Source of the DNA: an uncultured Acetobacteraceae bacterium
GTDB taxonomy: Bacteria; Pseudomonadota; Alphaproteobacteria; Acetobacterales; Acetobacteraceae
DNA: 64,000 nt
NCBI GenBank assembly: GCA_903895595.1
Contig: CAITUP010000112.1
Location: 1 to 64,000, forward strand
Direction: 5' to 3'
The position numbers and the translations under genes were made by a program. Numbering within the stretch: position 1 is the first letter of the stretch; every line of letters begins with the position of its first letter. Shown here one piece after another: positions 15,008 to 17,066 of the stretch. The notes beneath the pieces were generated by a model. The model did no database searches and was not told where the DNA came from. It saw nothing but the letters and a program-made list of their open reading frames with translations.

Positions 15008-15033
15008 TAATCCCGCGCCACCTGATAGGCTTG

Positions 15034-15042
15034 CCGAATATG
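15034..15042. repeat. Left copy of 9-bp direct repeat flanking the ATPase cassette
   Basis: CCGAATATG, 26 bp after the ilvN stop and before the AAA ATPase gene. An identical 9-mer occurs at 17008-17016, before ilvC. The pair brackets the two-gene cassette and could be a target-site duplication or recombination scar. A chance match between the two short gaps is not excluded. Confidence 0.4.
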
Positions 15043-15069
15043 GAACCTTGTTCGTAGGAAGGGCGTTCC

Positions 15070-16299
15070 GTGGCGCATATCGAAGGTTTCAGGGTCCGCA
15101 ACTATCGCTCGTTACGCGACGTGACAATCGGCAGGCTTTACGGTGATCGGGATACGCCCGGCCTGACGAGATTGATCGCGGTTATCGGTAAGAACGGCTC
15201 GGGCAAAAGCACGCTGCTCGACGCATTTGGGTTTTTATCCGATTGTTTGATCATGGGCGTCGAGGCAGCGTGCGACCAAAAGCAGCGTGGCGGCTTCGAG
15301 CGGCTTCGGTCGAAGGGAATGACGGGGCCGATCCATTTCGATATTTACTATCGGGAAGAACCTAACGACCGCCCAATCACGTACGAGCTTTCGATTGATT
15401 TGGATGAGCTGCGACGGCCATTTGTCAGTGAGGAAATATTGCGCCAGCGGCGGCGAAATCAAAGCCGTGGGCGTCCATTCCCGTTCCTTAACCTTCAGAA
15501 CGGCAATGGTGAGGTGTGGGCCGGCGAAGATGCTTTACAGGCCACGGGCGAAGAATCCAGATTCAAAATCGCGGTGAATTTAACGGACACGCGGCAGCTC
15601 GGGATCGCTACTCTGGGAACCCTACGGGACCACCCTCGCATTTCCCGTTTTCGGGATTTTCTGAAAGGTTGGTATCTTTCCTATTTCCAGCCAGACGCCG
15701 CCCGTGGCTTGCCCAGCGCCGGACCGCAGCCGCATTTGAATATACACGGCGATAACCTGAGCAATGTCGTGCAGTTCATGGAGCGCGAGCACAAAGACCG
15801 ATTTGCTGTTATCCTTAAGAGGATCGCCAGCCGTATCCCCGGGGTCAGGAAAATCGATACACACGTTACAGAGGACAGGCGTGTGCTTTTGCGTTTCAAC
15901 GATGGCGGATTCGAGGACCCCTTCTACGCACAGCAGATGTCCGACGGTACTTTGAAGGTATTCGCCTACCTGCTGCTTTTGGAAGACCCCGAACCGCCGC
16001 CTTTCATTTGTATCGAAGAGCCGGAGAACGGTCTTTATCATAAACTTTTGGAAACACTGGCGACAGAATTCAGGGAACACGCGACGAAAAAAGGCAGTGC
16101 GTCTCAAATATTCGTGACCACCCACCAGCCCTATTTCGTCGATGCGCTGGATCCATCGGAAGTGTGGATTTTGGAAAAAGGGAAGGACGGGTTTTCAACC
16201 GTGCAGCATGTCGTCAAGCTCGAAATCGTTAAAAACCTCGTCGCCGAAGGTCTGCCGCTCGGCGGGCTTTGGTACAGCGACTATCTCGACGCGAGATAG
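15070..16299 (+). CDS. AAA/ABC-type ATPase (AAA_15/21, OLD- or RecF-like), putative defence protein
   Basis: ATPase of 409 residues. It starts FRVRNYRSLRDVTI, the typical beta-strand opening of OLD/RecF-like AAA_15/21 ATPases. Walker A is GKNGSGKS (residues 40-47), an ABC-like signature MSDGTLKVFAYLLLL is near 289-303, Walker B FICIEEPENGL is near 311-321, and an H-switch FVTTHQPYF is near 349-357. The GTG start at 15070 has GGAAGG upstream. A DUF4276/TOPRIM-like gene follows 2 bp later. Base composition looks clearly AT-richer than ilvN and ilvC, suggesting transfer. The pairing resembles split ATPase/TOPRIM anti-phage modules (OLD, PARIS-like); the function is inferred. Confidence 0.85.
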   Translation: MAHIEGFRVRNYRSLRDVTIGRLYGDRDTPGLTRLIAVIGKNGSGKSTLLDAFGFLSDCLIMGVEAACDQKQRGGFERLRSKGMTGPIHFDIYYREEPNDRPITYELSIDLDELRRPFVSEEILRQRRRNQSRGRPFPFLNLQNGNGEVWAGEDALQATGEESRFKIAVNLTDTRQLGIATLGTLRDHPRISRFRDFLKGWYLSYFQPDAARGLPSAGPQPHLNIHGDNLSNVVQFMEREHKDRFAVILKRIASRIPGVRKIDTHVTEDRRVLLRFNDGGFEDPFYAQQMSDGTLKVFAYLLLLEDPEPPPFICIEEPENGLYHKLLETLATEFREHATKKGSASQIFVTTHQPYFVDALDPSEVWILEKGKDGFSTVQHVVKLEIVKNLVAEGLPLGGLWYSDYLDAR

Positions 16300-16301
16300 G
16301 C

Positions 16302-16952
16302 ATGCATTTCGAAATTCTGACCGAAGACAGTTCGGGGATGCGCCTGCTCGAATATTTGTTGCCCAAACTGGTCGGCCCGAACGGCGAACAGCATACTTGG
16401 CGGCTGCATTCATACAAGGGAATCGGCCATCTGCCAGCCGATCTGTCCTCGGCCGCCGACCCGGCCAAGCGACAGCTTTTGGACCAACTCCACCGTTTGC
16501 TGCGGGGCTACGCGAAAACGCCGGGGTGGTGCGATGCCGTGATCGTTGTCGTCGACTCGGACCGGCACGATTGCATCGCATTTTTGGCGGAATTGAAGCA
16601 AGTCGCGGTTGCATGCGGTGCCGAACATCTGGCGATGTTCAGATTGGCGATCGAGGAAACCGAGGCATGGTACCTCGGTGATCGCGACGCGCTGCTGACG
16701 GCCTACCCCAACGCGAAAAAGGCCCATCTGGATCGCTACGATCAAGACTCTCTATGCGATACCTGGGAGTTTTTGGCCGATATCGTGCATCCCGGCGGCC
16801 GACGTGCGGTCCAGAAAGCAGGCTGGCCAACCGCGGGGAACTTGAAGCACGAATGGGCCGATCGCATCGGCCCGCATATGGACCCTGACCGCAACCTCTC
16901 CCCCAGCTTTGGCAAGCTCCGCGACGGGCTGCGGCGATTGGCCAAGGTCTGA
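16302..16952 (+). CDS. DUF4276 / TOPRIM-like protein, putative effector nuclease of the ATPase pair
   Basis: Protein of 216 residues. It begins MHFEILTEDSSGMRLLEYLLP, where the early Glu matches the N-terminal acidic residue of TOPRIM-like folds. VIVVVDSDRHDC (~90-101) supplies a DxD motif, and RLAIEETEAWYLGD follows, as in DUF4276 proteins. TOPRIM folds with E...DxD bind metal and can cut nucleic acid. The ATG at 16302 lies 2 bp after the ATPase stop; an upstream TTG would overlap it. It was probably acquired with the ATPase. Whether it is a nuclease is inferred from fold and context. Confidence 0.72.
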   Translation: MHFEILTEDSSGMRLLEYLLPKLVGPNGEQHTWRLHSYKGIGHLPADLSSAADPAKRQLLDQLHRLLRGYAKTPGWCDAVIVVVDSDRHDCIAFLAELKQVAVACGAEHLAMFRLAIEETEAWYLGDRDALLTAYPNAKKAHLDRYDQDSLCDTWEFLADIVHPGGRRAVQKAGWPTAGNLKHEWADRIGPHMDPDRNLSPSFGKLRDGLRRLAKV

Positions 16953-17007
16953 TTTTTCCCAAGCCAAGCCCTGTCCAACGCCGCCGAGCCGCGCTAAACC
17001 CCCCCGC

Positions 17008-17016
17008 CCGAATATG
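17008..17016. repeat. Right copy of 9-bp direct repeat flanking the ATPase cassette
   Basis: CCGAATATG, 51 bp before the ilvC start and 55 bp after the TOPRIM-like gene. It is identical to 15034-15042, and the next bases are also similar (GAACC versus ACAACC). See the left copy. Confidence 0.4.
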
Positions 17017-17066
17017 ACAACCGAACGGCGCCGCTCCGGCGACCGCATAGCAAAAGGACCCAACCC

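Follow-up and report, generated by a model that had tools for sequence, protein, structure and literature searches.

A HEC-01-type candidate defence pair at a variable site within the ilvBN-ilvC operon of Rhodopila and related Acetobacteraceae

Introduction

Defence units that combine an ABC-type ATPase with a TOPRIM domain are known in several arrangements. In PARIS, the ATPase AriA and the TOPRIM protein AriB are encoded by separate genes (passages of PMC10568477), and AriA is described in part of PMC12409363 as sequestering AriB and releasing it when a trigger binds, after which AriB cuts tRNA. The two domains lie in one chain in OLD proteins of classes 1 and 2, are likewise found in Gabija GajA and the retron Eco8 OLD protein, and, as TOPRIM-linked OLD-ABC units, are presented in passages of PMC12839542 as auxiliary effectors in BREX loci. 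A further two-gene unit, Hma-embedded candidate 1 (HEC-01), is listed in PADLOC-DB. Here we describe a pair of this kind, HEC-01A (HECA) and HEC-01B (HECB), found between ilvN and ilvC in a stretch of 64,000 nucleotides (the window) of contig CAITUP010000112.1, assembly GCA_903895595.1, from an uncultured Acetobacteraceae bacterium. We consider it likely that the two genes form a candidate defence unit of the HEC-01 kind, an ATPase sensor with a nuclease, which in Rhodopila and in two further genera of Acetobacteraceae occupies an allelic site within the ilvBN-ilvC operon and is exchanged through the ilv flanks.

Hma is named in PMC8565338, HEC-05 and HEC-06 are mentioned in PMC11411939, and HEC-01 is listed, as an annotation only, among the systems annotated in Desulfovibrio piger (PMC12724379). 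PMC12988326, citing a preprint, states that antiviral activity was seen for several of the Hma-embedded candidates, including HEC-06. Our literature search returned no papers on DUF4276, the family of the second protein, and none on defence genes in an ilvN-ilvC arrangement among the best 8 of 61 matches.

Results

Identity of the inserted genes

The ilvN-ilvC gap of the window (positions 15008-17066) was found to hold an ATPase gene and a DUF4276 gene, 2 bp apart and in the same direction as the operon; open reading frames and Pfam matches agree with the original prediction on this arrangement. The first protein matched the PADLOC HEC-01A model PDLC04182 over residues 1-408 (E 2e-187) and Pfam AAA_21 (E 3.7e-45), and the second matched the HEC-01B model PDLC04205 over residues 1-212 (E 1.5e-88). 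Searched alone, the second protein matched Pfam DUF4276 with E 1.8e-5 and 25.5 bits, under the Pfam cut-off of 30.2 bits; when aligned with its relatives, 54 of 56 members matched DUF4276 at E 0.01 (best 3e-13). In each of the 80 loci from the genome_contigs collection (a few cut by contig ends), the second gene is directly preceded by an ATPase match, and thus the pairing of the two genes is not chance. The predicted split ATPase/TOPRIM-like pair of a defence-type family is supported. Its suggested status as an undescribed subtype is not, since both proteins match HEC-01 models almost full length: the pair is a member of an already listed candidate kind, and what is new is its location and its turnover. 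Two other PADLOC models appear to carry swapped labels, as PDLC04144 (named HEC-01B) matched the ATPase (E 8.6e-96) and PDLC04143 (named HEC-01A) matched the DUF4276 protein (E 2.4e-13).

Besides the near full-length matches, the window pair shares with HEC-01 the adjacent placement of both genes on one strand, and differs from it in lying within an amino-acid operon without a surrounding Hma or defence locus. The Hma embedding from which the HEC name derives is absent from the window copy and is seen in a relative (L142) that sits between HmaB and HmaC. The name records the way in which these candidates were discovered (passages of PMC12988326), so we do not take the lack of this embedding to exclude HEC-01 membership.

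Other systems were found to be less close. The AriA profile, whose model is as long as that of AAA_21, matched the window ATPase at 6.1e-41, and AriA chains of the PDB matched weakly. Of the profiles that the original prediction had named, AAA_21 and DUF4276 (the latter under its cut-off for the single protein) were matched, and the second protein differs from that of PARIS in being DUF4276 without an AriB or DUF4435 match. OLD and Eco8 chains were among the PDB sequence matches of the ATPase, and the profile of HECB links to OLD TOPRIM; unlike OLD, GajA and Eco8, the window pair consists of two separate open reading frames, and no helicase (GajB in Gabija) or reverse transcriptase adjoins it, its neighbours being ilvN and ilvC. 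Similarity of the ATPase to MAD3 of MADS (NF047739, E 1.3e-26) amounted to 93.8 bits versus a cut-off of 420, and here too the ilv neighbours differ. A second DUF4276/ATPase pair with the same two-gene architecture is present elsewhere in the source genome (G000, contig C86, locus L069, 8024-9870). It is diverged from the window pair (39% and 32% identity), its DUF4276 match is at E 1.1e-29, and a DpnI (Dam-replacing) family gene (5687-6562) lies about 1.5 kb upstream. R. globiformis (G029) likewise carries a second diverged pair away from ilv (L229, contig C272, 6327-8113).

Predicted properties of HECA and HECB

HECA carries G40-S47, SDGTLK and ICIEE, which we take to be its Walker A, ABC signature-like and Walker B motifs, as well as H352, consistent with the OLD/RecF-like ATPase that had been proposed. 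Its predicted model had a predicted local distance difference test (pLDDT) score of 88.0 and gave 154 Foldseek matches at E ≤0.001, the best 50 of which (best E 1.9e-12) were retron, Septu PtuA, Rad50, SMC/cohesin head and OLD ATPases. Residues of about 126-171 were least conserved among nine carriers, with mean pairwise identities of 0.40 and 0.35 in two 25-column intervals compared to 0.57-0.91 in the others; this stretch is a candidate recognition surface.

HECB was modelled with a pLDDT of 94.9 and has strands at residues 2-7, 31-37, 79-85 and 111-116 with helices between them. Five residues, E8, D85, D87, E118 and E119, are invariant in 56 sequences and stand at or just after strand ends in the model. 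By hhalign, the HECB profile matched a profile of 19 OLD TOPRIM domains (probability 69%, score 36.7, P 4.3e-5) with the glutamates aligned to each other and DxD aligned to DxD, in keeping with the early Glu and the TOPRIM-like DSD that had been pointed out from the sequence. When the columns were shuffled, 29 of 30 control profiles scored 6.9-14.1. Thinner TOPRIM profiles (3 and 2 rows) gave no usable match to HECB, and neither did an ilvC profile used as control. A fold search of BFVD placed an unnamed protein first (E 9.5e-4), followed by an RloB-like protein and a DNA topoisomerase (E 0.017 and 0.025), both of which we take to be TOPRIM proteins. The layout of strands and acidic residues in HECB is similar to that of Ts OLD, for which passages of PMC7049728 give a sheet order of 2-1-3-4, metal A ligands E377/D431/D433 and putative metal B ligands D381, S478 and E480. 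By profile, HECB appears TOPRIM-like, and it is presumed to be a nuclease; the fold searches yielded no convincing match to a solved structure.

Distribution of the pair

The ilvN-ilvC junction was read in each of 33 Rhodopila genomes, all that the genus search returned. An intact pair was found at this site in nine (G000, G007, G008, G009, G012, G024, G026, G029 and G032), including R. globiformis DSM 161 (G029, locus L126), and a remnant in one (G005), in which an internal deletion has removed about half of the pair. In 20 genomes ilvN lies directly beside ilvC, with 14 to 373 nt between, and three (G015, G016 and G028) had no readable junction. The spacing comparison called for by the original prediction thereby revealed that the pair is not present in all relatives. 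Two of the pair-free gaps, of 373 nt (G018, L044) and 320 nt (G030, L039), look by eye to be full of short motifs, repeated and inverted. In G004 (L068) the matches to ilvB and to ilvC are both split in two, apparently by broken frames in the assembly.

Among 397 genomes of the family, 22 matched the second protein: 8 of the genus, three genomes of two other genera with the pair between ilvN and ilvC (G070, G188 and G236), 10 distant matches, and G259, whose copy has an internal stop and lies on a 5.9-kb contig with no ilv gene. Twelve intact carriers in three genera thus hold the pair in the same position and orientation within the ilv operon. In genome_contigs (84,980 species) at least 80 loci were detected, 10 of them beside ilv in genomes already named (G007, G008, G009, G012, G024, G026, G029, G032, G070 and G236) and hence adding none. 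The other 70 loci, from other bacteria, had no ilv match in the DNA examined, which for 26 of them was less than 8 kb. Matches to the second protein were rare on plasmids (3 of 72,556 records) and phages (1 of 50,697 records). One locus, L105 (CALQHT020000077.1), is titled Nitrosovibrio and has ilv genes 88-96% identical to those of the window; it is probably a mislabelled bin. More distant pairs (L144-L166 except L160, and L182), with a second protein of about 33-40% identity, are mostly from Clostridia, many of them rumen or faecal by their titles.

Turnover at the ilv site

Genomes G026 (with the pair) and G010 (without) were compared along the operon. Their ilvBNC genes differ at 59 of 3291 sites and rpoB at 210 of 2355. 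In 200-nt intervals, 13-33 differences were detected upstream of ilvB and 1-4 from the ilvB start onward, until the last, partial interval at the ilvN end, which holds 13. On the other side of the insert, five intervals from before ilvC through most of this gene had 2-8 differences, the 22 nt before ilvC were identical, and no alignment was obtained beyond ilvC. Of the 15 differences within ilvN, 13 are confined to its final 49 nt, which adjoin the insert (hypergeometric 1.4e-12, for a segment picked after the differences had been seen). No match to the second protein was found anywhere in the G010 genome. Within a recently shared ilv haplotype, a short stretch including the ilvN end, whose 3' part is replaced, has thus been exchanged between the two lineages, a case of allelic exchange. 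The insert consists of only two genes, neither a recombinase; its ends in G026 had no 8-nt inverted match and no target duplication (one 8-nt direct match lies inside the ends), and repeats of the window do not sit at the insert edges. Transposition is not indicated. The internal deletion in G005 is another way for the pair to be lost.

Trees and selection

Two trees of the pair were built, a quick tree of 49 rows (the window and 48 of the 80 loci, the incomplete L116 and L141 being dropped) and a careful tree of 48 rows, from which the long-branch L173 was also dropped; both include L131, with its truncated HECB (26 aa), and neither includes G188. In the careful tree the 11 ilv-embedded rows fall on one side of a branch (support 92/95), and in 94% of 200 bootstrap trees a single change accounts for the embedding state. 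This is most simply read as a single original embedding. From then on, simple descent is not supported: in approximately unbiased (AU) tests on the HEC alignments both host trees were rejected in all six (p-AU at most 0.0003), and G070, a member of another genus, has a copy that groups with those of G000 and G008 within a 100/99 branch that leaves G026 outside. G070 itself lies outside the genus, at an unresolved fork, in a family-wide rpoB tree that was used only to place G070 and G188 (its 9 occupancy changes counted G015, G016 and G028 as empty). The G007/G024/G029 group recurs in both HEC and host trees. Site occupancy on the ilv tree required 6 changes compared to a shuffled mean of about 8.5.

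For 36 pairs among the nine intact genus copies, median proportions of nonsynonymous and synonymous differences (pN/pS) were 0.205/0.73 for HECA and 0.22/0.675 for HECB, similar to 0.18/0.575 for miaA. These values show the pair to be under purifying selection. The G005 remnant was excluded from these counts and from the AU tests.

Relatives outside the ilv operon

Neighbouring genes were examined for 31 close relatives outside ilv (L106-L143 minus seven ilv-embedded loci). A strong core defence match was found directly beside the pair in 10 of the 31, from 40 of 181 open reading frames of at least 100 aa, at least one per locus and larger genes first, a choice that favours positives and that had no control loci. 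These matches were to BREX (L111, L116), Wadjet JetC (L121, L123), Hma (L142), type I restriction (L124, L130, L131) and type III methyltransferase (L115, L125). Left out of the count were dGTPase (L106, L107), PsyrT (L107), HNH (L138), DndA/SspA desulfurase models (L139) and weak LmuB/mad3 matches (L114). In both L106 and L107 the PADLOC dGTPase-model gene is directly upstream of the pair.

Locus layout and composition

The features of the locus are collected in Table 1. The G+C content of the ATPase and DUF4276 genes (54.3% and 60.1%) is lower than that of ilvB, ilvN and ilvC (64.4, 66.1 and 63.5%), as is G+C at third codon positions (GC3; 0.63 and 0.71 versus 0.86-0.88), which agrees with the AT-richness noticed earlier; in the eight other intact genus carriers both genes of the pair also have lower GC3 than ilvB and ilvC. 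The leader before the ATPase gene measured 25-93 nt in nine other genus carriers (eight intact, one remnant). A sigma-70 scan of 12300-17200 gave no sites, and Rfam gave no matches on the window at gathering score. The pair is encoded in the same direction as the operon and the scan recognised no sigma-70-type promoter, so that it is probably transcribed together with ilvBN. A promoter-like block seen by eye upstream of ilvC (G000, G008, G026 and L104) was set aside as unsupported, given the absence of sigma-70 sites and the poor alignment of other carriers.

Table 1. Features of the ilvBN-ilvC locus (window coordinates)
Feature	Position	Strand	Basis
ilvB, acetolactate synthase large subunit, upstream flank	12698-14476	+	Pfam TPP_enzyme_N/M/C
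ilvN, acetolactate synthase small subunit; 3' end is left edge of variable site	14483-15007	+	ALS_ss_C, ACT
Leader, 62 nt, ilvN stop to ATPase start	15008-15069	+	alignment of carriers
HEC-01A (HECA), ABC/OLD-type ATPase, GTG start, 409 aa, presumed sensor	15070-16299	+	PADLOC, AAA_21, model, Foldseek
Walker A, residues 40-47 (G40-S47)	15187-15210	+	HECA motif reading
Most variable ATPase stretch, about residues 126-171, candidate recognition surface	15445-15582	+	nine carriers
ABC signature-like motif, residues 290-296	15937-15957	+	HECA motif reading
Walker B ICIEE, residues 313-317	16006-16020	+	HECA motif reading
HEC-01B (HECB), DUF4276, TOPRIM-like presumed nuclease, ATG start, 216 aa	16302-16952	+	PADLOC, hhalign, model
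E8, directly after strand 1, invariant in 56 sequences	16323-16325	+	alignment, model, hhalign
D85-x-D87, strand 3 end, with D85 and D87 invariant in 56 sequences	16554-16562	+	alignment, model, hhalign
E118-E119, just past strand 4, both invariant in 56 sequences; may be a second metal ligand by comparison with OLD	16653-16658	+	alignment, model
Spacer, 114 nt, HECB stop to ilvC start	16953-17066	+	open reading frame coordinates
ilvC, ketol-acid reductoisomerase, downstream flank	17067-18086	+	Pfam KARI_N/KARI_C

Discussion

By analogy with PARIS and the OLD-ABC units, as described in passages of PMC12409363, PMC12839542 and PMC10568477, we infer a sensor ATPase with a nuclease effector. HECA would bind ATP, sense an infection signal and keep HECB inactive until a trigger led to its release or activation. 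HECB would then cut nucleic acid in a metal-dependent manner through E8, D85 and D87, perhaps with E118/E119, and this cleavage would stop phage growth, with a probable cost for the host cell. The main route of gain and loss would be homologous recombination via the ilv genes on either side, across genus boundaries as well, and copies decay by deletion, as in G005.

Several observations weigh against this interpretation. No functional study of HEC-01 was found in the literature searched. Among the 31 relatives outside ilv, 21 had no strong defence neighbour, in a partial sampling that took larger genes first and had no control loci. For the TOPRIM assignment, one of the 30 column-shuffled controls scored 132.2 on 11 columns, far above the real match (probably an artefact of the shuffle), and the best 50 of 643 Foldseek matches of HECB in the PDB (best E 0.032) contained no TOPRIM. 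The support of 92/95 for the embedded clade is below the level at which branches were starred, and in the quick tree the embedded copies need two changes, not one. On the genus rpoB tree, occupancy required 8 changes (the least forced being 5) compared to a shuffled-label mean of 8.3, so no clustering was seen. Direct evidence of exchange comes from one genome pair only, G026/G010, in which either state may be the derived one. Finally, median synonymous differences (uncorrected, same 36 pairs) were higher for HECA and HECB than for miaA and for ilvN (0.51), ilvB (0.46), rpoB (0.415) and ilvC (0.35), which is compatible with exchange and, as well, with a faster rate of evolution or with weak codon bias.

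The pair might instead be an addiction-type (toxin-antitoxin-like) selfish unit, in which the ATPase restrains a toxic nuclease, loss is punished and phage defence is secondary. The two-gene order with the ATPase first would suit such a unit, as would the label 'antitoxin' given to PARIS AriA in PDB chain names and the Pfam description of AAA_21 as 'putative AbiEii toxin'. Loss is nevertheless survivable, the pair being absent at the site in 20 of 33 genus genomes and half-deleted in G005, and some relatives adjoin restriction, BREX or Wadjet genes; we regard this alternative as improbable. A role for the host that has nothing to do with phage, in making branched-chain amino acids or in controlling their synthesis, would account for purifying selection and for the constant ilv position and orientation in 12 intact carriers of three genera. 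It is harder to reconcile with the 20 genus genomes that keep ilvN and ilvC adjacent without the pair and with the 70 of at least 80 loci in other bacteria that lack an ilv match (26 of them under 8 kb), several of which adjoin defence genes, and a host role is therefore judged distinctly improbable.

The original prediction was supported in part: presence is patchy and composition atypical. A mobile module in the sense of a self-moving element is not supported. Patchy distribution, low G+C and the changes of occupancy (8 with the rpoB tree, 6 with the ilv tree) would suit such an element. That one inserted recently and repeatedly into the ilvN-ilvC gap is nonetheless very unlikely, given that the embedded copies form one clade, that the G026 edges show neither terminal inverted repeats nor target duplication, that the ilvN 3' end is replaced, that the insert has only two genes, neither a recombinase, and that matches are rare on plasmids and phages. 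Least probable of all is a neutral passenger hitchhiking on ilv recombination, for which the decay in G005 speaks. Against it stand the pN values of the nine intact copies in the genus, which are far lower than pS, and the invariance of the catalytic-type residues over 56 relatives.

A bolder extension of the allelic-exchange interpretation, which we put forward as speculation with the balance of probability against it, is that the ilv operon is a dedicated allelic docking site for this defence pair, with occupied and empty states as well as sequence variants passing across lineages and genera by homologous recombination in ilv genes, and that co-transcription ties the nuclease dose to branched-chain amino-acid demand, such that nutrient stress would tune abortive defence.

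Searches for candidate defence genes mostly concentrate on islands, prophages and plasmids, and a pair located in a core amino-acid operon of three genera would escape island-based searches. Recombination in conserved flanks would provide a simple route for defence genes to spread without mobile elements. As R. globiformis DSM 161 is a deposited strain with an intact embedded copy, defence, expression and any effect on ilvC can be tested in this organism.

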